This document shows, piece by piece, positions 1,435 through 15,287 of a stretch of DNA of 33,548 bases. Source of the stretch: Methanobacteriota archaeon. Its GTDB lineage: Archaea; Thermoplasmatota; Poseidoniia; Poseidoniales; Thalassarchaeaceae. Where the stretch lies: contig PATC01000031.1 in the NCBI GenBank assembly GCA_002712285.1, positions 1 through 33,548 on the forward strand, in the 5' to 3' direction. Within the stretch, counting starts at the first letter, position 1; each line of letters starts with the position of its first letter. A model generated the notes under the pieces. The model was not told the DNA's origin, ran no database searches, and saw only the letters and a program-made list of their open reading frames with translations. The position numbers were made by a program, and so were the translations under genes.

Positions 1435-2439
1435 ATGCTCATTGATACTGAAGCGGACCGGCTCCTTGAAAATACATCACGTTCCTTCTTTCTGACTCTG
1501 AAAGTATTACCTCATTCAATAAGAAAGCAAGTTGGATTACTCTACCTTCTTGCAAGAGTTGCTGACACAATCGCTGATTCAAAAACCGGCCGTGTGGAAG
1601 TTCTTCTAGAGGCTCTAGAAGCGTGGGATAGAGCGACGAGTCAAAATGATGTACCAATGAATGACCTTTCTACACTAGCAGATCTACAATCTGATCCAGC
1701 AGAAGAGACTCTGCTGAGAAATGTAAGTATCCCTCTTGAAGCATTATCTTCAATCTCTGAAAACGACCTAATCCATATTCGCCGATGCCTTGGTATAATT
1801 ATCGGCGGACAAACACTGGACTTGAAGCGGTTCGGACCCGCAAACGATTCGCAAGGTATCTCGTCGCTAAACAATGACGACGAGTTAGATGATTATGCAT
1901 ACAGAGTCGCAGGCTGTGTTGGAGAATTCTGGACTTCGATGACCCTAGCACATCTAGTTACTGCGGATGGACCTACTAGTGAGCAGATGTTCGAACTAGG
2001 TATACGATTTGGTAAAGCGCTACAGATGATTAACATCCTCCGAGACATACCTGAAGACCTCAGATTTGGACGTTGCTACATCCCTGAAACCCGCCTTCAG
2101 GCAGTGGGTTTGAATCCAGACGAACTTACCGACCCAAATCAATATGAAAAATTTAGAATTGTGCACAATGACCTTCTTGATATCACACAAGGTCACCTAA
2201 ATGCAGCTAGTCGATACATCCTCATGCTACCTTCAAATCAGCGACGACTGCGTATTGCATGTATGCTACCCGTCATCATCGGTCAGCAAACTGTCGATAT
2301 GTTACGTGTAAACAATGTTCTTGATAGAAATACACGGATTAAGGTTCCAAGAAAAGAGATTAAGCGAATCATGAGAAAGTGTGTAATCGCAACTCTGCTA
2401 CCGGGTGGTACACGGCGACTACTTATGCGGAGCCGATGA
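1435..2439 (+). CDS. squalene/phytoene synthase family protein (squalene synthase-like)
   Basis: A 334-residue head-to-head prenyl synthase that would condense two prenyl diphosphates (FPP or GGPP) at the membrane face. The first aspartate-rich motif is at residues 41-48 (RVADTIAD) and the second at 200-217 (NILRDIPEDLRFGRCYIP, with D204, E207 and D208). The N-terminal SRSFFLTLKVLP segment also fits the family. Length is normal. The ATG at 1435 is supported by a Shine-Dalgarno GAGGTGG at 1424-1430. The next gene (2525) belongs to the same superfamily but is clearly divergent, so the two are likely different activities or partners, as with bacterial HpnC/HpnD. Substrate and product cannot be read from sequence alone. 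No desaturase or oxidase gene lies in the window. Confidence 0.85.
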   Translation: MLIDTEADRLLENTSRSFFLTLKVLPHSIRKQVGLLYLLARVADTIADSKTGRVEVLLEALEAWDRATSQNDVPMNDLSTLADLQSDPAEETLLRNVSIPLEALSSISENDLIHIRRCLGIIIGGQTLDLKRFGPANDSQGISSLNNDDELDDYAYRVAGCVGEFWTSMTLAHLVTADGPTSEQMFELGIRFGKALQMINILRDIPEDLRFGRCYIPETRLQAVGLNPDELTDPNQYEKFRIVHNDLLDITQGHLNAASRYILMLPSNQRRLRIACMLPVIIGQQTVDMLRVNNVLDRNTRIKVPRKEIKRIMRKCVIATLLPGGTRRLLMRSR

Positions 2440-2524
2440 ATAATCGAAAAGGACTGAAACGGCATCTTCGATGCCCGCATCCCTCCACTTGATATAGGGC
2501 CGAGAGTTCGTAAAGCATGATACC

Positions 2525-3757
2525 ATGTCGGAGACGCGAATCAAGGAATCGACTGTAAAGGTCGAATCTATTCGCTCTACCGATAACAGCGAGCAAAAAA
2601 TTGCTAGTTTTCGGGCCGCAGTTGAACTTACTTCTGATGCAGTTCGTGCCGTTAGTGTGACCGCAGTGGACGCACTAAAGGCATCAGCCAGATTCATGGG
2701 TGTAGTGAGCAAAGAAGAAAATTTAGCAAATCCCTTCGATAACATCGATGCTCCAGTTTGGTCTGAGAAAGATATTCCCCCATTCATACTGAACACTGCT
2801 TACGATTACTGTGAAGCACTCACTATTCGTGAAGCTGCTAACTTCTATCACTCGTTCAAGTATCTACCTGATGAACAACGAAGAGCAATGTGCGCGTACT
2901 ACGCTTTCTGTCGAAGAGCAGACGACATTGCAGATGGAGATTATCGAGATTTATTTCCCGGTTCATCAGGTCCAAAAGACGAAGAAGCTCTCGAATATAT
3001 TGATCGGATTGAGGAAATGATACAACGCGTCCCAGTTGTCGACCGTACAAGTTTCATTGACAAAATGTCACAACTATTTTTCTTCCGTAAAAAACTCTCA
3101 ACCGCTTACAATGATCTTGCTTCAACTGATCCAATCTTCTTGGCTCTCAAAGATACTGTCCAGAAGTACCATATTCCTCGAATTCACCTTGATGATTTAA
3201 TCGCAGGCATGGAAGATGACTTCTTCCAAGACAGGTATGAGACGTTTGAAGACCTCTATCGATACTGCTACAGAGTCGCTTCAACCGTTGGGCTTGTCTG
3301 CATTGATATTTATGGATACGAGAACCCTAAAGCCCGTGATCATGCAGAAGCCTGGGGCGTATTTATGCAATTGGTCAATATCCTTCGAGATGTACAAGAA
3401 GACGCTGATAGAGGCAGAATTTACCTTCCTATCGAGGACCTAGCGCGCCATGGAATCAAGCCAGAGGATGTGCTTGAAGGGCGTCTCCAAAAACATCCAG
3501 GATGGGAACCTTTTGTTGCAGAATTTATTGAAAGAATAGAGGTTTATCGAGACCGCGCCCTAGATTTATTGCCTATGCTGAAACCAAAGATGCGCTTCAG
3601 TCCAGCAATTATGATGGGATTCTATCGATCTATATTGAAGAAAATTCACCGAAATGAAGGGGATGTGTTCACTCATAGAGTGAAACTGAACAAAATCGAG
3701 AAGTTGACACTTGCTCTATCGATATACATCCGGCACCGTTTCTTGACGTTCTTCTGA
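2525..3757 (+). CDS. phytoene synthase-like (CrtB/HpnD type) with N-terminal extension
   Basis: A 410-residue squalene/phytoene synthase. The first aspartate motif is at 130-137 (RRADDIAD). The second is at 285-302 (NILRDVQEDADRGRIYLP, with D289, E292 and D293). It resembles phytoene synthase more than the upstream paralogue does. About 85-90 residues precede the normal family start. This extension is charged and Ala/Val-rich, probably helical, and has no signal peptide. The C-terminus ends in a hydrophobic patch (IYIRHRFLTFF) that could touch the membrane. It lies 85 bases after the upstream synthase and is probably co-transcribed, although a TATA-like gatatag at 2491-2497 could give it a short-leader promoter. 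The likely reaction is 2 GGPP to phytoene; squalene-pathway use is possible. Confidence 0.85.
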   Translation: MSETRIKESTVKVESIRSTDNSEQKIASFRAAVELTSDAVRAVSVTAVDALKASARFMGVVSKEENLANPFDNIDAPVWSEKDIPPFILNTAYDYCEALTIREAANFYHSFKYLPDEQRRAMCAYYAFCRRADDIADGDYRDLFPGSSGPKDEEALEYIDRIEEMIQRVPVVDRTSFIDKMSQLFFFRKKLSTAYNDLASTDPIFLALKDTVQKYHIPRIHLDDLIAGMEDDFFQDRYETFEDLYRYCYRVASTVGLVCIDIYGYENPKARDHAEAWGVFMQLVNILRDVQEDADRGRIYLPIEDLARHGIKPEDVLEGRLQKHPGWEPFVAEFIERIEVYRDRALDLLPMLKPKMRFSPAIMMGFYRSILKKIHRNEGDVFTHRVKLNKIEKLTLALSIYIRHRFLTFF

Positions 3758-3816: not shown

Positions 3817-5583
3817 ATGCGTGTAGCAGTCTTGTTGGAAGACCGGTGCGCGCCCAATATGCCTGCATTTGCATATCTTCAGAAGTATGCAGGAATGTGC
3901 GGTAGTGAATGTATACAGGTAGTCGATAACAAATGCAAGATACTGGAAACGGCTTGTCCCGTGTGTTTGAATAGAGCAAAACATTGTCCAGGTGATGCTG
4001 TAATTCTAATCAATTTACCACAAGAACTTGAAAGCGACATGACTCATTGTTTCGGAGAAAATGGATTCAGAGTTTTTCGCCTCCCTACACCAAGGGAAGA
4101 AGCAGTAGTTGGAATCCTTGGTCAGAACGGAATGGGAAAATCCACTGCAGTTCAGATTCTCTCAGGATCTTTACGTCCAAATCTTGGGGATTGGGATGAT
4201 GAAAAGGAATGGGATGAAATTATCGAGAGTTACCCCAAAGGGGAACTCAGAGATTACCTAGAGAAAGTCGCATTATCCGGAGTTAGAATTGCAGTTAAAC
4301 CACAATATGTGGACAAACTTCCGAAAATTTTCGACGGACTAGTAAGTGAACTTCTAGCAAGGGTAGATGACCGCGAAGAAATCGAAAAATGGACCGAAGA
4401 GATGGGTATTATTCACCTAATGGAACGCAAATTAGGAGAATTATCAGGAGGAGAACTCCAAAGAGTTGCTATATGTGCCACACTTCTAAAGGATGCAGAT
4501 GTTTATTTCTTCGATGAAGCTACATCATATCTCGATATTCATGAACGAATGAGAGTCACTAAGATCATACAAGCATTGGCTGAGATGGGGAAACGAGTTC
4601 TAGTTGTTGAACACGATTTAGCAATTCTAGATGTTTTATGTGACCAAGTACACATTGTCTATGGTGAAAGAGCAGGCTATGGGATATTCACTCCTGCAAG
4701 AACTACCAGAGTCGCCATCAATGCATATCTCAATGGCCACCTTGTTGAGCAGAACATGCGAATTCGAGATAAACCGATTAAATTCCATACAGGAAGAATA
4801 AGATCGGAAGAAATCGGTGAACCTATACTACAGTGGGGAGGACTAAAGAAATCATTGGGCGAATTTACCCTTAATTCCAAGGAAGGAACCGTTCATTCAG
4901 CTGAGGTTGTTGGCATAGTTGGCCCAAATGCTACGGGAAAGACCACGTTGGTCCGTATTCTTGCAGGAGAATTAGAATCTGACGAAGGTTGGACCACTAT
5001 GGATGCGAAAGTATCCTACAAACCACAACATGTCAAAGCAACCTTCGATGGAACAGTAAGAGAATGGCTGGATACCGAGTTAGGTAGAGCATGGCATTCA
5101 GGTGAATTTCAAAGTAAAGTAGTCAGACCATTAAATGTAGATCAATTGCTTGAATTACAGGCTCGGAAACTATCAGGAGGAGAACTCCAAGCAGTTTGGA
5201 TCGTTCTTTGTCTTGGTAAAGATGCAGATATCTATCTCTTGGATGAACCTTCAGCGCATCTTGATGCGAATGCGAGAATGGAAGCTGCAAAAGCAATCAG
5301 AAGAACAATGCTTGCTAAAGAAAAAGCAGCCATGGTAATTGATCATGATATCTACTTCATCGATATCGTAAGTGATTCATTACTTGTGTTTGAAGGCGAA
5401 GGTGGGGTCGAAGGGAATGCTGTCGGACCACTACATCTTCGACAAGGAATGAATCGCTTCCTGAAAAACGTTGGAATCACGTTCCGTCGTGATCAAGATA
5501 CAAAGAGGCCACGAATCAACAAGCCAGACAGTCGTAAAGACCGAGAACAGAAGGCTTCAGGGGAGTATTTCTACACCAAATAA
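3817..5583 (+). CDS. ABCE1/Rli1 ribosome-recycling ATPase with degenerate Fe-S domain
   Basis: A 588-residue twin-ATPase protein that splits post-termination ribosomes. An N-terminal ferredoxin-like domain (1-68, ending INLPQEL) leads into NBD1 with Walker A at 102-110 (GQNGMGKST), signature LSGGELQR near 209 and Walker B FFDEATSYLD near 230. NBD2 has Walker A near 366-374 (GPNATGKTT), signature LSGGELQ near 452 and Walker B YLLDEPSAHLD. Length and hinge match ABCE1. The Fe-S domain is unusual. Cysteines occur at 11, 28, 32, 40, 47, 50 and 57, and three of the four cluster-I ligands plus the third cluster-II ligand appear missing. NBD2 reads LSGGELQAV where QRV is usual. The start has a Shine-Dalgarno ggag eight bases upstream. 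Two nuclease genes follow 13 bases downstream. Confidence 0.93.
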   Translation: MRVAVLLEDRCAPNMPAFAYLQKYAGMCGSECIQVVDNKCKILETACPVCLNRAKHCPGDAVILINLPQELESDMTHCFGENGFRVFRLPTPREEAVVGILGQNGMGKSTAVQILSGSLRPNLGDWDDEKEWDEIIESYPKGELRDYLEKVALSGVRIAVKPQYVDKLPKIFDGLVSELLARVDDREEIEKWTEEMGIIHLMERKLGELSGGELQRVAICATLLKDADVYFFDEATSYLDIHERMRVTKIIQALAEMGKRVLVVEHDLAILDVLCDQVHIVYGERAGYGIFTPARTTRVAINAYLNGHLVEQNMRIRDKPIKFHTGRIRSEEIGEPILQWGGLKKSLGEFTLNSKEGTVHSAEVVGIVGPNATGKTTLVRILAGELESDEGWTTMDAKVSYKPQHVKATFDGTVREWLDTELGRAWHSGEFQSKVVRPLNVDQLLELQARKLSGGELQAVWIVLCLGKDADIYLLDEPSAHLDANARMEAAKAIRRTMLAKEKAAMVIDHDIYFIDIVSDSLLVFEGEGGVEGNAVGPLHLRQGMNRFLKNVGITFRRDQDTKRPRINKPDSRKDREQKASGEYFYTK

Positions 5584-5596
5584 TCGGGGAATATAC

Positions 5597-7363
5597 ATGC
5601 CCGTAAATCAACCTCCATTCGGTGGCGCAGGAAGAAGACGTAGAAATCGATTGAGTGGAAGTTCAATCGTTTCATGGGAACGATGCCCAAGAGGTTGGAT
5701 GGTGAGTCGCCGACTAGGACTTAGGGGGCCTGTCCGGCCATCGATGCTTCTCGGTATCTTGCTAGAGGACGCAGTTGTGAGCTTACTAATGGAATCTCCA
5801 CCAAGTGACGGTACATCACCGAAAGGATATGCAACTTGGTTGGATTTTATGGGAGCTCCCGATTATGAAAACGTGGATACTAATCCTATCGATTCGATTG
5901 AAGGAATTCATGATTGGCTACATTCCTTGGTGCCTGCAATGGCAGAACATGTTCACAAAGTTTTGATTCAACAGTGGAAAGAAACACCTTGGAAAACTGA
6001 TGAAGATGATATTGAAAAAATTCAGCAGGTCAATATCAGGAAACAAATTCGGTCAGGTCTACGAATGCAGATCAATGAAGCGAAAAATTGTCTTGAGAAT
6101 GGAGGTGGACCTCATCTAGGATTGTATCGCACTACAGGCGACCCACATAACCCACCTGCGCCGCGTTGGGGATCAACTCCAAGCAATAACAATCCAATAG
6201 ATGGATTCCAAGAAGTCGGACAACCAATCAATTGGTGGGAAGCATGGGAAGTGGCTAGACCTTGGATGAAGGATCCTCGTATTATTGAACCACAGCGTCT
6301 CCATCACCCAGAAGGTTGGGCATCTGGAGAGATGGATGTCGTTCATCGATGGAGAGAAAATGCAACTATTGTAGACATCAAGTCAGGGCTCCATGGTGGA
6401 CGTCCTCAGCCAAATTTGGAAACACAATTAAGATTCTACCGTTGGCTTTGGCATCAAACTCGTGAAGGACAATCACAGAAGGTAGATCGTCTTGAGGGTT
6501 GGTTCCTCCTCGACACCCAAGTTCACTGTATCGATGCTCATTCAGATGAGGTGATGAATCAGGAAACTAAGCGCTTAGAGAACATTCGAGATCAGATGAG
6601 CAAAGTTGCTGAACAGGATTGGTCTTGGATGGATGAAGACGGCACTCCAGAAAGTCACCCACTACATTGCCCACATTGCAGTGGCACACAAATCTGCGGA
6701 TATTCATCAAAACCTGAAAATCGTGCTCTTCGAGAATTTCTTCCTAAACTCAAAAACATCGATATTTTACAAACACAATCAGATTCTTCACTAATCTCCG
6801 ATTTACCCAGTCGAATCAATGTAAAGGGGATAATCGATGGAGGATGGACCGAGAACGAAAATCCGTATGGAGAAACTGTTCGTGTCGCTAATCTTAGAGT
6901 TGGCAACACACACGTAACAATTGAGGAAACAGAGGCAGGAGTAGTGAATCCGGAAACGTGGCGTGGAGATGTTGCGATAGTAAATGCGAACCCAGGACAT
7001 CACCGTGATAGAGCACGACTTTTCCTAGACTCTCGCAGTCATCTAGTGCCACAAGATTCACAAGAACAGTGGACTAGACTAGGACTAATCCCATCTCGTG
7101 CCACTGTTTCGGGCGAAGTCGTTTCTGTAAATTCAATGGAAGGAGTATCACAAAATGGTAGACCATGGACAATCAGGACCCTGCACCTATGGGATGGCAG
7201 CGGAGTAGTCGAAATCGCGGCCTTTGGTTCAAATCGTTCTCGAACTTTTGATTCCATCAGAGTCGGTGACAAAGTTACTGTCAAACATGGTGAATTAGGA
7301 TGGCGAGAAGGATCACCTCAGATTAAGATTGGAAGGGCAACGATAATCCAAACCATCTCATAA
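5597..7363 (+). CDS. Fe-S PD-(D/E)xK nuclease (RecB/Cas4-like) with C-terminal OB module, copy A
   Basis: A 588-residue protein. The first Cys is at C30 (WERCPRGW), followed by a G-x3-E helix (E57). The nuclease core is GEMDVVHRW (D247) and IVDIKSG (D260-x-K262), followed by a Q-x3-Y-like segment (TQLRFYRWLW). The terminal cysteines are C358-x2-C361-x5-C367. One early plus three late cysteines is the 4Fe-4S arrangement of Cas4, AddB and Dna2 nucleases. The last 90-100 residues look like an OB fold (SGEVVSV, then VGDKVTVKHGEL). No helicase motifs are present. The ATG at 5597 lies 13 bases after the ABCE1 stop; an upstream in-frame start at 5471 would overlap ABCE1. The likely role is single-stranded DNA processing in repair or recombination, an inference from fold. 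It has a tandem paralogue directly downstream. Confidence 0.8.
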   Translation: MPVNQPPFGGAGRRRRNRLSGSSIVSWERCPRGWMVSRRLGLRGPVRPSMLLGILLEDAVVSLLMESPPSDGTSPKGYATWLDFMGAPDYENVDTNPIDSIEGIHDWLHSLVPAMAEHVHKVLIQQWKETPWKTDEDDIEKIQQVNIRKQIRSGLRMQINEAKNCLENGGGPHLGLYRTTGDPHNPPAPRWGSTPSNNNPIDGFQEVGQPINWWEAWEVARPWMKDPRIIEPQRLHHPEGWASGEMDVVHRWRENATIVDIKSGLHGGRPQPNLETQLRFYRWLWHQTREGQSQKVDRLEGWFLLDTQVHCIDAHSDEVMNQETKRLENIRDQMSKVAEQDWSWMDEDGTPESHPLHCPHCSGTQICGYSSKPENRALREFLPKLKNIDILQTQSDSSLISDLPSRINVKGIIDGGWTENENPYGETVRVANLRVGNTHVTIEETEAGVVNPETWRGDVAIVNANPGHHRDRARLFLDSRSHLVPQDSQEQWTRLGLIPSRATVSGEVVSVNSMEGVSQNGRPWTIRTLHLWDGSGVVEIAAFGSNRSRTFDSIRVGDKVTVKHGELGWREGSPQIKIGRATIIQTIS

Positions 7364-7404
7364 TTAGCGTCGTATTCAATACCCCTCGCACTGAATAGCA
7401 AACC

Positions 7405-9267
7405 ATGCCAGTCACTCTGATTGATCCGGCCAACATTAAGGTCGCCGGATGGGATCGTTTGTCTGCCTCTAAGGTAGGCATCTGGCGAAGCTGCCCAAGA
7501 CAATACTGGATGAATTATGTTCTCAAACTAAAGGAGCCCGCCCCAGTTGCAGTAGTTCGTGGAATCGCTGTGGAAAACTGCATCTCAAGAGTACTGAGAG
7601 AAAGTCCTGCTCTGATTGGAGATGGTATGCCAGATCGCATCTTAATATCACCTCTAAACGAAGACGGTTCCCTCGCAATGGAAAGCATTGAGGGTTGGCC
7701 AGGACCAACCCTGAATGGTATTTCTGTAGAAGACAGACCTGCAACTCTTGAACACTTGAGGCAATGGGCATTCGCACGTGTTGATGCACATTTCTCACGT
7801 TGCACAGAAGAGGCTCTACTAAATTGGGAGATGAATCCAAATCGCGTCGGTGAGAGAACGGATCTAGATCCTGAAATCGTCAGAGATATGTCGAAAGCAG
7901 GAATTGACTTGCATTTACAAGAAGTCATTCGATGCAAAGAAAAATTCAGTGATGAGCAATTAGCCCTATGGCGTGCAGGAATTTTACGTCCAAAGTGGCC
8001 TTCACCTGATGGATTCCCCTGGAAGGGAGAAAAATTTCCACCTATAGAAGCAGATACTGAGGAGATTAAATGGACGGAAGCATGGGCAATATCTCGACCT
8101 TGGTTTGTTGATCCAGATGCGCCCAGTTTCTCCATGAATAGTATCCATCCAAATCATTGGTTTCAAGGCGAATATGATCTTGTCTACCGATGGGACGGAC
8201 AAATCCGAATCATTGACCTCAAAGCATCCTTGGGCAATACAGATCGTTCTCGCCTCTATCCTGAACAACTTCGAATGTATGCTTGGCTATGGTGGGAAAC
8301 GCATGGTCGTTCGGAAACAATTGACGGGCTAGAAATATGGTACCTAGGGGACGGAGGCCATCGGAAAACAATACATCCCCCTACAGAAAAAGAACTCAAT
8401 GAAATATCTGAAGAAATGGCTGCAATTCATTCGATCCTATCCAATATACAATCTGATGAAGATACACCAACTGAACCATCTCCTGTAATACGATTTGCAC
8501 CAGGAGGAGTAGAGATTGAAACACATCCTGACACGAATGCAAGGTGTAAAATCTGCCCCTATATGGCATTGTGCCCAAATGGCGACTATGATGCTCAATT
8601 ACCAGCTGAGAGAACTACAGAGGCATTCTCCCGTTCAGTGCCTGTGACTTCTATCAGTAACATCGAACCGCGTGTAACATTAGAAGGAGAGATTTTCAGT
8701 ATGATTAAACCACCTACGCTCAAAGATGGGGGGGTTATATTCTCCTTCATATTACGCCAAGGACACGATGAAGCCGAGGTGAAAAATGCCTTCCGTACAG
8801 CGCCTAGGAACGTTACACGAGGACTCCAAAAAGATGCACGAGTACGTATCCGAGGGGGCATTCCGGGACTATGGAGAGGTCGAATGCAGATTGAAATTGA
8901 TGATTCTGCAAGTATCGAACTATCAGAAGGTCCACAGGAGAAAGATCTTGATCTGATCGATATTCACCCAAGAGTAAACGCAATTGGAAAGGTATGGGCA
9001 GTTGAATTGAAGCCAGGGATTCAGGCAGATGGATCAAATCAAACAACTTGGAAAATCAAAATGGCTGATTCAAGTGGTGTTCTGACCGTGATTGGATTCA
9101 AGATGAATGTCCCAGAAAAAGCTCGGGGTGTAGAACGCGGGGATGTTATCGCAGTCATCAATGGCCAACCTGGAGAATTTGGGGGTCAGAAACAGATTAA
9201 ATGCATTCGAGATACAAGTATAATTCTCATTTCATCCTCTGAAAAATCCACAAGTTGGAATCTATAG
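7405..9267 (+). CDS. Fe-S PD-(D/E)xK nuclease (RecB/Cas4-like) with OB modules, copy B
   Basis: A 620-residue paralogue of the upstream gene. C30 (WRSCPRQYW) and E57 (RGIAVE) fall at the same residue numbers. The shared block W-x-EAW-x3-RPW precedes the catalytic GEYDLVYRW (D258) and IIDLKAS (D271-x-K273), then EQLRMYAWLWW. The late Fe-S cysteines are C381-x2-C384-x5-C390. The C-terminus is longer than copy A and seems to hold two OB-like segments, roughly 415-510 (LEGEIFSM to GRMQIEID) and 520-610 (AIGKVWAV to KQIKC). Catalytic and cluster residues are intact in both copies, so neither is a decayed duplicate. They may form a two-nuclease complex, as AddA/AddB do, but that is inference. The start is the first ATG after a 41-base gap; no strong Shine-Dalgarno is seen. 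Confidence 0.8.
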   Translation: MPVTLIDPANIKVAGWDRLSASKVGIWRSCPRQYWMNYVLKLKEPAPVAVVRGIAVENCISRVLRESPALIGDGMPDRILISPLNEDGSLAMESIEGWPGPTLNGISVEDRPATLEHLRQWAFARVDAHFSRCTEEALLNWEMNPNRVGERTDLDPEIVRDMSKAGIDLHLQEVIRCKEKFSDEQLALWRAGILRPKWPSPDGFPWKGEKFPPIEADTEEIKWTEAWAISRPWFVDPDAPSFSMNSIHPNHWFQGEYDLVYRWDGQIRIIDLKASLGNTDRSRLYPEQLRMYAWLWWETHGRSETIDGLEIWYLGDGGHRKTIHPPTEKELNEISEEMAAIHSILSNIQSDEDTPTEPSPVIRFAPGGVEIETHPDTNARCKICPYMALCPNGDYDAQLPAERTTEAFSRSVPVTSISNIEPRVTLEGEIFSMIKPPTLKDGGVIFSFILRQGHDEAEVKNAFRTAPRNVTRGLQKDARVRIRGGIPGLWRGRMQIEIDDSASIELSEGPQEKDLDLIDIHPRVNAIGKVWAVELKPGIQADGSNQTTWKIKMADSSGVLTVIGFKMNVPEKARGVERGDVIAVINGQPGEFGGQKQIKCIRDTSIILISSSEKSTSWNL

Positions 9268-9292
9268 AACGTTTAACTGAATTAAATTTAGG

Positions 9293-9375
9293 CGCCGAGA
9301 GAGGGATTTGAACCCCCGCGTCCAAAGGACAGTGGATTTCGAATCCACCGCAATACCGGGCTATGCGATCTCGGC
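9293..9375 (-). tRNA. tRNA-Ser (anticodon CGA)
   Basis: On the minus strand a class II tRNA folds cleanly. The acceptor is GCCGAGA/TCTCGGC with discriminator G. The D arm has a 3-bp stem (GCA/TGC). The anticodon stem GTGGA/TCCAC encloses the loop TTCGAAA, giving anticodon CGA. A long variable arm (TCC/GGA stem) follows, then a T arm GGGGG-TTCAAAT-CCCTC. The long variable arm and G discriminator are serine features. CC but not A follows the discriminator (9291-9292), so CCA is not fully encoded. No intron is seen. It reads UCG codons. Confidence 0.95.
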
Positions 9376-9667: not shown

Positions 9668-10429
9668 CTAGACGTAGAACTCAGGTGATGGTTCAGATGT
9701 TTCAAAGAGGCGATCAAGTTCACTGGTGTCCATCGCAATCTCTTTCCTAATTCGCTCAGCAGTTTTCTCAGTGGTATCAACACTAATGGCAAGAGGAATC
9801 CCGAGACTTTCTTCTATCCAATTGGCAATTCGCTGCCCTGTGATTACATCGACAGTAGAACCAAGTGTTTCAGCGACAATACAGGCAGATGCGAGTGAAT
9901 GTAATGGCGCCATACTTGCTAGCAACCCCGCCATCCCAATCATGCCTGCTTCGGGAGCATCATTAGATGCTTCAATTCCGCGTGCTGAAAACGCATCTCT
10001 AGTATCTTCATCAGAGCATACGAGATGCACTGAGTCATCTTCTACATCAGCTGCGAGTCCTGCAAGAATGAACATTATCTCCGACTTTGCTTCAGTGAAT
10101 ATCTCTAGCAACCGCGTAGACAATTCAAACTGCCCTGTGGGAGTCAATGGCTGCGCATCACCTGTAACAATTAGTATAGGCAATCCAACAGGAAGTTGAA
10201 CAAGATGGATTTCAACTCTAGGAGGCCGCAGTAAACCATCGACCAATGTTGCATGTGGAGGTAAATCGGGATGCATCACCCAAGCGATTAGATCGCTAGA
10301 GTGCTCTTCGATTATGGCATCGACGAGAACCTTGCCTACATTTCCTACTCCCGGGAGAGCGAGTAAGATGACCATCTCTTGAGGAATTTCCTTAGAATCA
10401 CTGAGCCAATGAATCATTGAACGGTTCAT
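9668..10429 (-). CDS. PAC2-family proteasome assembly chaperone with C-terminal HbYX motif
   Basis: A 253-residue PAC2 protein. The N-terminus has the family beta-alpha core (VILLALPGVGNVGKVLVDAI), followed by GLLRPPRVEIHL, LPILIVTGDAQP and the GMAGLLASMAPLH segment. The last residues are PSPEFYV, matching the hydrophobic-Tyr-X (HbYX) tail with which assembly factors and ATPases dock into 20S alpha-ring pockets. Archaeal PbaA has such a tail and PbaB binds it. The gene is the last in the eL42-eS27-aIF2alpha-Nop10-PAC2 operon and its ATG overlaps the Nop10 stop (ATGA), indicating translational coupling. The role as a proteasome chaperone or adaptor is inferred from family and tail. Confidence 0.85.
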   Translation of the reverse strand: MNRSMIHWLSDSKEIPQEMVILLALPGVGNVGKVLVDAIIEEHSSDLIAWVMHPDLPPHATLVDGLLRPPRVEIHLVQLPVGLPILIVTGDAQPLTPTGQFELSTRLLEIFTEAKSEIMFILAGLAADVEDDSVHLVCSDEDTRDAFSARGIEASNDAPEAGMIGMAGLLASMAPLHSLASACIVAETLGSTVDVITGQRIANWIEESLGIPLAISVDTTEKTAERIRKEIAMDTSELDRLFETSEPSPEFYV

Positions 10430-10641
10430 TCCTCTTCACCTCGAGGATCAAGAGTAGGTAGAAGAGCCGCCCAAGTGCCCGAACCAACCTGTCTTCTCTC
10501 TCTTCGACGTTCGCCCTGCTTGTCCTCGGGGGAGAACTTGATGGGTGCAGCAGCAATCATAGGACCTCCACATTCATTGCATTCCTTGCCTAAACCATAC
10601 TGGCCACAAGATTGACACTTCTGAAGTCGACTTCGAGCCAT
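10426..10641 (-). CDS. nop10: H/ACA ribonucleoprotein subunit Nop10
   Basis: A 71-residue zinc-ribbon protein. The N-terminus has C9-x2-C12 and C21-x2-C24 (KCQSCGQYGL, ECNECGG), followed by the diagnostic Nop10 block APIKFSPEDKQGERRRERR. Nop10 bridges Cbf5 and the guide RNA in archaeal box H/ACA particles that make pseudouridine in rRNA. The C-terminus is about ten residues longer than many archaeal Nop10 proteins. The gene lies between aIF2 alpha (73 bases upstream) and PAC2 (4-base overlap), the order common in archaea. Confidence 0.95.
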   Translation of the reverse strand: MARSRLQKCQSCGQYGLGKECNECGGPMIAAAPIKFSPEDKQGERRRERRQVGSGTWAALLPTLDPRGEEE

Positions 10642-10714
10642 AATGAATCACCTATGCATCCAAGTGCTTGCAACCGGGTTCAAGAACCATCCGGGAAAAG
10701 AGAACGAACTGAAC

Positions 10715-11503
10715 TTACTCTCGATGAATTTCAAATCGACCGCCGGCTTTCTTAATTTCAGAAGAAGCCAGATCTCTGGCTTGCTCGTAAGCCTTCTCAG
10801 CTGACTTATAATCTGGCGCAACAACCTCGATTCTGTACTCAGGTGCACCGTCATAATAGCAATCAATCTCCACTTCTTCCATATCCTTCGCAACATCTTC
10901 AGCTGCGGCTAGAGCAATTCGGATTGCTTCTACGCCTTTTTCGGACCAAACCTCAATGTGAAAACGGCCACGAATGGTAACACTTGCTGGGACAATATTC
11001 TCTAATGCAATCTCAACAAGCATTGGAATCCAATCCCCTTCAAATCCGAAATCGGCAAGAGATTCTGGAGTTGCAGCTGCTGCCTCAAATGCAGCATAGA
11101 GACCGCCAAATGTATCAGATAACTGGATACTCATTGACTCATACTCTTCCTCGGGCCAACCCACACGCTCGGAGATGATCCGAAGTAGCTGACTAGCCCT
11201 CTGTTCATTCTTCCAATCTTGGAGTGTTTCGCGCCTACGCTCGTCAGAAACAGACTTGATTGAAACATCAACACTGCGCTTATCCTTTCGAACTCGAGTG
11301 ACACGAGCGACCGTTCTCTGCCCTTCTCGCAAGTGATCTCGAACGCGAGCAACCCATCCAGAACTGACTTCTCCAATGAACACAAAGGCACGGATATCGT
11401 CAGAGTATCCCTGAAGGGAAAGGTAGGCTCCGTTCTTCTCAATTCCTTGAACATTGACTACTACAAATTCTCCTTCTTCAGGATATTCAATTTCGTCAGA
11501 CAT
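10715..11503 (-). CDS. translation initiation factor aIF2 subunit alpha
   Basis: A 262-residue aIF2 alpha, which together with the beta and gamma subunits delivers initiator tRNA to the small ribosomal subunit. The N-terminal S1-type OB domain is clear (EGEFVVVNVQGIEKNGAYLS, FVFIGEVSSGWV, EGQRTVARVTRV, SVDVSIKSVS). A helical domain and the C-terminal alpha/beta domain (VTIRGRFHIEVWSEKGVEAI, EYRIEVVAPDYKSAEKAYEQ) follow. The ATG at 11503 is preferred, preceded by a GGGGGG run about nine bases upstream. A GTG at 11524 would extend it by seven residues into the eS27 stop. It is the third gene of the eL42 operon. Confidence 0.95.
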   Translation of the reverse strand: MSDEIEYPEEGEFVVVNVQGIEKNGAYLSLQGYSDDIRAFVFIGEVSSGWVARVRDHLREGQRTVARVTRVRKDKRSVDVSIKSVSDERRRETLQDWKNEQRASQLLRIISERVGWPEEEYESMSIQLSDTFGGLYAAFEAAAATPESLADFGFEGDWIPMLVEIALENIVPASVTIRGRFHIEVWSEKGVEAIRIALAAAEDVAKDMEEVEIDCYYDGAPEYRIEVVAPDYKSAEKAYEQARDLASSEIKKAGGRFEIHRE

Positions 11504-11520
11504 TCTTGGAAGCCCCCCGA

Positions 11521-11691
11521 TCACTCGAGGGCTTCCTGAATTTCACAGCCAACAAGCTTAGCCTTGCCACCCGCTGGCTCTGCTAAGAGGGCACCACATA
11601 CTCCACAATTGATTATGGTGGAAGCACGCTCGAAAATTACAGTCTCGTTCCCACAGTCCTTGCAGGATACTCGAAGGAAACGCTTGACCAT
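11521..11691 (-). CDS. 30S ribosomal protein eS27
   Basis: A 56-residue small-subunit protein with an intact zinc ribbon: C10-x2-C13 (VSCKDCGNE) and C29-x2-C32 ([10 protein letters not shown]), ending in the typical [15 protein letters not shown] stretch. Start ATG 11691 follows a GAGGGTG Shine-Dalgarno; an in-frame GTG at 11706 would only add five residues overlapping the eL42 stop. It sits 11 bases after eL42, so the two are co-translated from one message. Confidence 0.95.
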
Positions 11692-11702
11692 GTTTGACAC
11701 CC

Positions 11703-11987
11703 TCACTTATCCACTAGCTCGAACTTCTTAGCCCGCTGACCTGCTGGAGAGTGGGCTTTTCCAGTTTCAGTGCAACGGTAGATGAGATTAATCCGCTTGG
11801 TCGGCTTTTCGCGACCTTCAGGCTTTGGACGTGGGAAACCGCGGTAACCCGCAGTGACGCGCCTGAAACGACGTTGCCCCCACTTGAGTTCGGATGCACG
11901 TCGCTTCTTGACCCGCTCAACGGTGTGCTCAGTGTGACGACCAGCAGCAGGACTGTATCGCATGACCTTACGCGGCATCTTGACCAT
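11703..11987 (-). CDS. 50S ribosomal protein eL42 (L44e) lacking most zinc ligands
   Basis: A 94-residue protein containing the highly conserved eL42 core: [33 protein letters not shown] and the C-terminal [10 protein letters not shown]. In the ribosome eL42 lies near the E-site. The usual archaeal first ligand pair CPxC near residue 12 reads [10 protein letters not shown] here, and the second CxxC reads [10 protein letters not shown], so only one of four zinc cysteines remains. The sequence is otherwise well conserved, which argues against a pseudogene. Start ATG 11987 is set by a strong GGAGGGG five bases upstream. Longer in-frame extension to 12197 lacks family similarity. It is the first gene of the operon. 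Confidence 0.95.
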
Positions 11988-13313: not shown

Positions 13314-15287
13314 TCAGAATTTGCGATCAGGATTATTTCGTCCACGGAACTTAGGGGTAGTTGCTCCGTCTGCCGAATCCTTCCTGGTCCATACTCGAAT
13401 GAACATAACTACGAAGAGAAGGAAAAGAACTGCCCCCGCGGGTGCTAAAATCATCAATGTAGAGGGCGAATTGGATTTACTAGCATCATAAGGATAGAAA
13501 TCGGCCCTATCACCTACACCATCTGAATCTGAATCCTTCCATTCAGTTGGATCAATTGGGAACGCATCGCTGTTGTCTCCAATACCGTCACCATCGCCAT
13601 CCAAGGTCTCGGATGAATCATCAGGGAATACATCAGAATTGTCTCCTACTCCATCGCCATCACGATCCGAATTTTCATCGGGATTATCTGGGAAAGCATC
13701 CTCTGCATCTACAACGCCATCCCTATCTGAATCTACACCAATAATTTCGATTACGTTATTCATGGAAATTGTCTTCCTAGTTCCATCAATCATCATTAGA
13801 TTGAGTTCAAGACCATAGTTCCCAAGCGGTGTATCTTCAGGCAGAGGTATGCTAAGATTCCATACATTACCCTCATCCTTTTGCATTTGACCCCGCAAAC
13901 CTTCGTTGACCCATATGGAGGGAGGAGCTGCTCCTGAGGGAGCCGCAAATGGAGCAGATGACCAATCCAATTCGTTTGGCGTATTTCGATCACCAGAATG
14001 TCCCAATCCTAGTTGGCCTTGTTTATTGAAGCCCCAACATAGTATCGTTCCATTTCGATTCAAAGCACAGGTGTGCCATTCATCAGCGTCGATTGCTACG
14101 ACATCTTCCGCACCGACTACATGCTGAGGAGTATGTAATTCACCGCCAGTAAAACCTACACCTAAGCGACCCTTGTTATTGTGCCCCCAGCAATATACTG
14201 AGCCATTTTCTATTACTGCGCATGAGTGATGAATTCCTAAAGCCAAATCTACTGCAATAGATCCATTTGGGAGATGCGAGATTAACGGGGTAATAGAATT
14301 GCTAGTGGTGTTGTCTCCAAGCATTCCATCCGTGTTAAAGCCCCAACAAGACACCTGTCCATTGTCAAGAATAACACATGAATGAAAATGTCCTACAGCC
14401 AAGTGAACTGCGGCTCTCCCATCAGGCAATGCTACATTGGAAGAGGCAGAATATGTGGTTGATGAAGTGCCTCCATCGCCATTCTGACCAACATGATCTC
14501 TCCCCCAGCACATAACGCCACCATCTGTGAGAAGGATACAGGTATTTTGCTGCCCTCCACCAACTGATTTTAGGGTCCTACCATCAGGAACTGGCACCTG
14601 AACTGGCTCATACTGAGCGGACGTCTCAGCATCCCCATTTCCAAGAATACCCCATGAATCTGAGCCCCAACACATCAGTGATGAATCATCTAGAATGGCA
14701 CAAGTGTGACTACGGCCCATTCCAACAGTTTCAACGGTGCGGTTAGAAGGGATTTTGACAGGATTTGTTGGAGACTTGTAGGTATTCGTCGTACCATCTC
14801 CAGATTCACCATTAGGATTGTACCCCCAACAGTACAGATGGCCTTCAAAAGTCAGAGCGCAAGTGCGATGATATATAGCAAATATAGACTTGAATGGGGA
14901 TCCATCAGGAGATGATATGTGGTTCGTGGGGCGAACATACTTGTCTGAACTCCCTCCATCTCCCAACTGCCCGTGTGGATCGCTGCCCCAACATATTGCT
15001 GAGCCATTTTCTAAAATCCCACAACTATGTTGAACACCTACACTGAGAACTGATTCTGAAGCAGGGTTTGACTCGCCATCAATAATATACTCAAATCGAA
15101 GTGAAGATGCCCCAGGTATTGCACTAAGATCAATCTGGCAATTTACTTCTTGGCCTGCGTTAACAATCTCAGAATCACAATCGATAGAATCAGATGTCAC
15201 CTCTGCGGTAGCCGAGGATGATAACGATTGAAGGGAAAGCAGCAAGAATATAACCGCGACTAGGATAGCCCCACGATGGTTAGTCAC
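13314..15287 (-). CDS. surface protein: signal peptide, seven RCC1-like repeats, TSP3 calcium repeats, C-terminal TM anchor
   Basis: A 657-residue protein starting at GTG 15287 (GAGG five bases upstream; an in-frame stop lies further up). Residues 1-28 form a signal peptide (GAILVAVIFLLLSLQSLSSS). Seven RCC1-type blades follow, each with H-[ST]-C-x-[IL] then CWG about 12 residues later (for example HSCGILENGSAICWG). The paired cysteines would form disulfides outside the cell. A linker of about 80 residues leads to four DxDxDGxxD thrombospondin type 3 repeats (about 519-607). A membrane helix (about 608-629) and a basic tail (RKDSADGATTPKFRGRNN) end it. It is anchored by the C-terminus with the propeller outside. 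The role could be adhesion or binding of extracellular substrate; the ligand is unknown. Confidence 0.9.
   Translation of the reverse strand: MTNHRGAILVAVIFLLLSLQSLSSSATAEVTSDSIDCDSEIVNAGQEVNCQIDLSAIPGASSLRFEYIIDGESNPASESVLSVGVQHSCGILENGSAICWGSDPHGQLGDGGSSDKYVRPTNHISSPDGSPFKSIFAIYHRTCALTFEGHLYCWGYNPNGESGDGTTNTYKSPTNPVKIPSNRTVETVGMGRSHTCAILDDSSLMCWGSDSWGILGNGDAETSAQYEPVQVPVPDGRTLKSVGGGQQNTCILLTDGGVMCWGRDHVGQNGDGGTSSTTYSASSNVALPDGRAAVHLAVGHFHSCVILDNGQVSCWGFNTDGMLGDNTTSNSITPLISHLPNGSIAVDLALGIHHSCAVIENGSVYCWGHNNKGRLGVGFTGGELHTPQHVVGAEDVVAIDADEWHTCALNRNGTILCWGFNKQGQLGLGHSGDRNTPNELDWSSAPFAAPSGAAPPSIWVNEGLRGQMQKDEGNVWNLSIPLPEDTPLGNYGLELNLMMIDGTRKTISMNNVIEIIGVDSDRDGVVDAEDAFPDNPDENSDRDGDGVGDNSDVFPDDSSETLDGDGDGIGDNSDAFPIDPTEWKDSDSDGVGDRADFYPYDASKSNSPSTLMILAPAGAVLFLLFVVMFIRVWTRKDSADGATTPKFRGRNNPDRKF
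13467..13733 (-). repeat. four thrombospondin type 3-like calcium-binding repeats
   Basis: Within the RCC1 protein, the minus strand encodes four imperfect units of the form D-S-D-x-D-G-x-x-D-x-x-D-x-F/Y-P-x-D. The first three are about 23-24 residues each and the last is truncated. Aspartates at alternate positions are the Ca2+ ligands in this family. The repeat lies between the propeller and the membrane anchor, so it probably works as a calcium-rigidified stalk. Confidence 0.85.

Follow-up and report, generated by a model that had tools for sequence, protein, structure and literature searches.

The window analyzed here, 33,548 nucleotides of contig PATC01000031.1 from an archaeon of the family Thalassarchaeaceae (order Poseidoniales, Marine Group II), contains two adjacent genes, P1 and P2, directly behind the gene for ABCE1. 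Both encode a Cas4/AddB-type nuclease of the PD-(D/E)xK superfamily fused to RPA-like arms. The kind of nuclease is known, but the architecture is new. P2 is an order-wide core protein; P1 is a dispensable paralog that was lost once. We consider it probable that the proteins trim single-stranded DNA (ssDNA) or flaps in replication or repair, gripping the substrate by their own RPA-like arms. A sequence-only reading of the window had drawn attention to this tandem pair behind ABCE1, and both open reading frames are indeed present. As it had supposed, P1 and P2 are not described in the literature searched.

Both proteins matched the Pfam model PDDEXK_1 (PF12705) above its curated cutoff of 22 bits (41.6 bits for P1 and 61.1 bits for P2) and contain the catalytic D...D/E-x-K motif of the superfamily. 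Each of the 27 proteins in the joint alignment matched the model with E<=0.01. The predicted OB-like modules were recovered as well. The Pfam OB domain (PF01336) was matched with 29.6 bits in P1 and 29.4 bits in P2 (cutoff 27), and AlphaFold2 models showed two beta barrels following the nuclease half in each protein (predicted local distance difference test scores of 87.6 for P2 and 83.4 for P1; models built on 21 and 14 orthologs, respectively). The best Foldseek matches in the PDB were tandem-OB proteins: RPA70 (4gop_C) ranked first for P2 and second, after a HIN domain, for P1. OB matches filled these lists, and the rankings concern the OB half, the nuclease fold having no ranking of its own. 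At the sequence level, the best PDB match of the joint profile was archaeal RPA41 (E=7.5e-9, OB2 only), and the nuclease half retrieved Cas4 alone, and weakly (4r5q, E=0.007). Cas4 models also matched weakly, but repeatedly. The tandem RPA-like OB fold was found in the C-terminal half only. Profiles detected no superfamily 1 (SF1) or other helicase domain of the kind that Dna2 and Bad carry in the same chain, no AddA/AddB helicase folds, and no DHH domain of the HAN/RecJ type; a weak HAN_nuclease match spans only the OB region 502-580. There is also no helicase gene in the operon. The absence of a helicase thus holds for P1, P2, and their operon, but not for the genome, which encodes an AddAB-like helicase-nuclease on another contig (see below).

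P1 and P2 are paralogs, far beyond chance. They share 24% identity along the whole length (BLASTP E=2e-40), and profile-profile comparison gave a probability of 100 with E=4e-84 over 578 columns. Within the source genome (74% complete), they are the only full-length relatives of one another. Common to both, in the same order and register, are C30, E57, the W-x-EAW-x3-RPW block (residues 213-223 in P1 and 223-233 in P2), GE-x-D...D-x-K, Q-x3-Y, and C-x2-C-x5-C. The duplication proposed from the shared motifs is therefore borne out.

We assessed residue conservation in 34 P1 and 61 P2 proteins. The catalytic residues were invariant in 34/34 P1 and 61/61 P2, as were C30, G-x3-E57, and the initial two of the three cysteines in C-x2-C-x5-C. 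A further invariant cysteine lies inside a long helical insert (C165 in P1, C177 in P2). The third cysteine of the C-terminal motif, C390, was present in every P2. Its P1 equivalent, C367, was found in 16/16 rows from Thalassarchaeaceae and in 0/18 from the second family, Poseidoniaceae, where all 18 proteins have an extra cysteine located upstream of C358 by 2 to 7 residues. In Poseidoniaceae, the P1 staple thus retains four cysteines, with one putative ligand relocated. The statement that every catalytic and cluster residue was kept is correct for the two window proteins but does not extend to all P1 orthologs.

The cysteine pattern of AddB, Cas4, and Dna2 (an N-terminal cysteine plus C-x2-C-x5-C) was present in 61/61 P2 and, in the window's family, in 16/16 P1 proteins; this layout has been described for Cas4 (PMC3466216). 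Because of the Cas4/AddB precedent, we infer that the four-cysteine staple is a metal site (PMC3466216). The metal is probably an iron-sulfur (Fe-S) cluster rather than zinc, which DUF3799 holds with these same cysteines (PMC3466216).

No characterized family fits P1 and P2, nor did either give a clear match to a characterized single-subunit family. They resemble Cas4 and solo-Cas4 (COG1468, TIGR00372, PF01930) in the RecB-type PD-(D/E)xK core and the cysteine pattern, and solo-Cas4 also in being CRISPR independent and vertically inherited. However, P1 and P2 scored only 18.6 and 21.2 bits against TIGR00372, whose equivalog cutoff is 65. They are also about three times longer than Cas4, carry the tandem RPA-like OBs, the long helical insert, and the extra cysteine, and have G-x3-E instead of G-x3-H. 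The C-terminal nuclease domain of AddB, which acts on ssDNA, likewise has a four-cysteine staple around a RecB-type nuclease, but P1 and P2 lack helicase-like domains, and a separate AddAB-like pair is encoded in the same genome. Eukaryotic Dna2 and bacterial Bad combine an Fe-S-stapled nuclease with OB or RPA handling, as predicted for P1 and P2. In contrast to these enzymes, P1 and P2 have no SF1 helicase, and their OBs are C-terminal and RPA-like; the OB domain of Dna2 lies at the N terminus and lacks DNA binding (PMC4716839). The C-terminal half of P1 and P2 shares its tandem OB fold with archaeal RPA (Pyrococcus RPA41) and with DBD-A plus DBD-B of RPA70. RPA was its top sequence match and among its best fold matches, but RPA itself has no nuclease.

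We compared constraint on the two paralogs as mean pairwise identity in the same 14 genomes, whose pairs are not independent. The nuclease core was 46% identical in P1 and 51% in P2. The cysteine tail was 19% identical in P1 and 40% in P2, whereas the order was reversed in OB1 (43% and 27%) and OB2 (50% and 27%). For OB2, P1 exceeded P2 in 99% of the (non-independent) genome pairs. The OB domains of P1 also contain the invariant aromatics W417, W524, W532, and F543. In P2, selection acts on the nuclease half, and in P1 on the OB half. This asymmetry is the best evidence for specialization and suggests a division of labor between P1 and P2. It would suit cooperation of the two proteins but does not show that they bind each other.

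Next, we determined the distribution of both genes. The family names Thalassarchaeaceae (f1, the window's own), Poseidoniaceae (f2), and Marine Group III (f3) are inferred assignments. P1 is 74% identical to a protein of the marine euryarchaeal metagenome-assembled genome SAT164. Single-sequence searches across the phylum found relatives in 97 of 295 genomes, restricted to Thalassarchaeaceae and Poseidoniaceae. The joint profile matched 215 of the 295 Thermoplasmatota genomes; in the genomes checked match by match, no nuclease-OB fusion was present outside Poseidoniales, nearly all matches being RPA-type OB regions. The Marine Group III genome G061 (97% complete) gave no joint-profile match. 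By profile searches, the nuclease-OB fusion is found only in the order Poseidoniales.

Both genes are present in the Poseidoniaceae and in the Thalassarchaeaceae genera g1, g2, g3, and g5. In contrast, P2 occurs without P1 in the seven Thalassarchaeaceae genera g4 and g6-g11, corresponding to 32 of the 97 Poseidoniales genomes sampled. In a maximum-likelihood tree, P1 and P2 split with 100/100 support, the groups within each are largely mirrored, and the genera without P1 group together in a single clade (99/99). This topology indicates a duplication before the Poseidoniales family split, followed by a single loss of P1. At the P1-less locus, P2 stands behind radical-SAM and PdxT genes, not behind ABCE1; a substitute for P1 was considered there and rejected, the genes at this place being those two. 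P2 of the P1-less clade retains all catalytic and cluster residues.

A dedicated heterodimeric single-strand nuclease, comparable to the two nuclease subunits of AddAB without the helicase, had been put forward for the pair. Adjacency of P1 and P2 in nearly all genomes having both, the mirrored trees, and the complementary constraint are in favor of it. However, adjacency follows from tandem duplication, and seven genera with intact P2 and no P1 mean that such a heterodimer is facultative at most. An obligatory one cannot hold, and the expectation that the pair always co-occurs in related genomes failed. On the other hand, P1 is missing from only about a third of the relatives, by one loss, not from most of them. 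A dedicated heterodimer therefore appears to us rather unlikely. The distribution points to a housekeeping enzyme of repair or replication rather than to a machine that needs both parts.

The genomic context is housekeeping, as the sequence-only reading had proposed, and the genes are vertically inherited. ABCE1 and P1 are separated by 13 bases and P1 and P2 by 41 bases (for coordinates, see Table 1). ABCE1 was located directly 5' of P1 at every P1-bearing locus among the 20 loci compared. The order ABCE1-P1-P2, followed by convergent PAC2-Nop10-aIF2alpha-S27e-L44e, is widely conserved among P1-bearing genomes. With L44e just upstream of S27e-aIF2alpha-Nop10-PAC2, these genes form the archaeal 'LSIN' cluster (S27e, L44e, and Nop10 were assigned by eye). 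This cluster was defined previously and in archaea usually adjoins PCNA, primase, and GINS genes (PMC2643942); its neighborhood to P2 may be a weak hint at replication. The same layout, with an operon that starts with ABCE1 and faces L44e-S27e-aIF2alpha-Nop10, could also speak for an RNA-processing or ribosome-linked nuclease. We consider this improbable: the ABCE1 link is lost in the P1-less clade, DNA is the established target of Cas4/AddB-type domains (PMC3466216), and LSIN usually adjoins replication genes (PMC2643942).

The window contains neither a CRISPR-like array nor an Rfam CRISPR RNA, the sole RNA detected being a tRNA. The surroundings of P1 and P2 contain housekeeping genes and not the cas1/cas2 or CRISPR expected for a CRISPR-associated Cas4, consistent with the lack of a Cas context noted before. 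A defense nuclease against viruses or plasmids, either a Cas4-like solo nuclease or similar to DruK of Druantia, is likewise improbable. The PADLOC models for Cas4 and DruK matched weakly, and solo-Cas4 genes have been proposed to act in defense or repair (PMC5704561). In contrast, P1 and P2 are inherited vertically throughout the order at a fixed housekeeping locus, no defense neighbors were seen, and searches of phages, plasmids, and viral contigs revealed no relatives.

We also surveyed other nucleases and repair genes. The AddAB-like pair (contig C23, L162:5800-14396) consists of a 1644-amino-acid (aa) protein with UvrD helicase and PDDEXK domains and a 1232-aa PDDEXK protein; the AddA model matched with E=6.5e-39, well under the equivalog cutoff. 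It was present in 12/12 Poseidoniales genomes tested, in 0/6 of Marine Group III, and in 0/2 of other Thermoplasmatota. The NurA profile found no match in any Poseidoniales genome or in most Marine Group III genomes, but the NurA and Rad50-hook profiles on which such absences rest are weak, matching only 7/14 and 4/14 controls. NurA, HerA, and a Rad50 hook lie within about 5 kb in the Thermoplasmatota genome G059 (contig C19), and NurA adjoins HerA in G061 (contig C13). The idea that P1 and P2 simply replaced HerA-NurA is weakened, since most Marine Group III genomes had neither a NurA match nor an AddAB-like gene.

Two further nucleases were compared with P1 and P2. P0003, a solo PDDEXK_1 Cas4/AddB-like nuclease of about 390 aa (contig C14, L159:6692-7858), was present in all 16 Poseidoniales genomes searched. 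It is nearer to the nuclease half of P1 and P2 (hhalign probability 95.9, E=5e-9) than is P0004 (2.6). Unlike P1 and P2, P0003 lacks the RPA-like tandem and has G-x3-H, with E57 of P1 and P2 occupying the position of the histidine. We take this histidine to be the RecB-type metal-binding one. P0004, a Cas4-like nuclease (contig C41, L153:6402-7610), has three hydrophobic stretches between its N-terminal cysteine motif and the catalytic core, which are probably membrane spanning. Its gene forms a conserved block together with two genes of surface type that bear CARDB. The genus distribution of P0004 is identical to that of P1 (14/14 P1-bearing and 0/7 P1-less genera). We did not use this as an argument that the two share a pathway: the genera without P1 are one clade with smaller genomes, and each loss counts as one event. 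The P0004 copies in G013, G023, G033, G204, and G046 carry a single in-frame stop within the region that was matched; they are possibly decaying genes, or the match ends past the stop in draft genomes.

The favored reading, trimming of ssDNA or flaps by self-tethered nucleases, would work as follows. The N-terminal half (about 400 residues) is a Cas4/AddB-type PD-(D/E)xK domain, presumably closed by the four-cysteine metal staple. The C-terminal RPA70-like OB pair would hold ssDNA, or compete with RPA for it, and feed a DNA end or flap into the active site. Among Cas4 proteins, for which the cysteine layout has been described, Sso0001 is a 5'-3' ssDNA exonuclease (PMC3466216). P2 would be the general-purpose enzyme. 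P1 would have specialized in DNA gripping or RPA handling while retaining its catalytic residues, and, where present, would probably share substrates with P2 and act on them jointly, the two perhaps forming a facultative heterodimer. The likeliest process would be end or flap trimming in replication or recombination repair, beside the AddAB-like helicase-nuclease.

Several observations weigh against this reading. The OB domains of P2 have few conserved aromatics, so that strong binding of P2 to ssDNA is less well supported. Proteins that bind double-stranded DNA or RNA can contain tandem OB pairs as well, and HIN domains were among the top Foldseek matches. The translation-gene neighbors may leave room for a role in RNA metabolism. 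Finally, NurA was undetected in most of Marine Group III too, so the pair cannot be read as simply standing in for NurA.

Table 1. Position of the P1/P2 genes, their motifs and domains, and neighboring genes in the window
Feature	Position	Strand	Remarks
ABCE1, ribosome-recycling ABC ATPase	3817..5583	+	Two ABC_tran domains; leads apparent ABCE1-P1-P2 operon
P1, PD-(D/E)xK nuclease + tandem OB domains, 588 aa	5597..7363	+	Dispensable paralog
P1 C30, first cluster cysteine	5684..5686	+	Invariant 34/34
P1 E57 of G-x3-E motif	5765..5767	+	Invariant 34/34
P1 catalytic core E245-x-D247...D260-x-K262...Q277-x3-Y281	6329..6439	+	All invariant 34/34
P1 C358-x2-C361-x5-C367	6668..6697	+	C367 replaced by upstream cysteine in Poseidoniaceae
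P1 OB1	6794..7066	+	AlphaFold2 model, Foldseek
P1 OB2, RPA-like, invariant W524, W532, F543	7079..7360	+	PF01336, joint-alignment RPA41 profile match, conservation
P2, PD-(D/E)xK nuclease + tandem OB domains, 620 aa	7405..9267	+	Order-wide paralog
P2 C30, first cluster cysteine	7492..7494	+	Invariant 61/61
P2 E57 of G-x3-E motif	7573..7575	+	Invariant 61/61
P2 catalytic core E256-x-D258...D271-x-K273...Q288-x3-Y292	8170..8280	+	Invariant 61/61
P2 C381-x2-C384-x5-C390	8545..8574	+	Invariant 61/61
P2 OB1	8647..8934	+	AlphaFold2 model, Foldseek tandem-OB match
P2 OB2	8962..9240	+	Pfam PF01336, AlphaFold2, Foldseek
tRNA-Ser(CGA)	9291..9375	-	Convergent boundary of the operon
S27e-aIF2alpha-Nop10-PAC2, convergent	9668..11706	-	Usual neighbor downstream of P2

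Elsewhere in the window, positions 1-264 hold its only tandem repeat (75-base unit, 93% matches), which is at the edge and apparently coding. Two squalene/phytoene synthase genes stand side by side upstream of ABCE1 (1435-3757), and a gene at 13314-15287 (minus strand) encodes an archaeal 657-aa protein with RCC1-type beta-propeller repeats.

For Marine Group II, whose handling of DNA breaks and flaps has no description in the literature searched, we tentatively propose that DNA-end processing was rebuilt. In place of NurA or HerA-NurA, which were not detectable, an AddAB-like enzyme and the pair with RPA-like arms might operate. P2 would cut, and P1 would mainly grip single strands or clear RPA, so that together they would provide a Dna2-like function in two parts and with no helicase; a single branch would have shed both P1 and the membrane-spanning Cas4-like nuclease. 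Because of the weak profiles and the undetected NurA in most of Marine Group III, such a swap in resection is only a lead. The permanent fusion to RPA-like arms raises the question of whether RPA-type domains can replace a helicase in setting the polarity and substrate of a stapled nuclease. The relocated cysteine of P1 is a natural experiment on staple flexibility, and the P1-less clade allows a natural test of whether P1 and P2 have to work jointly.

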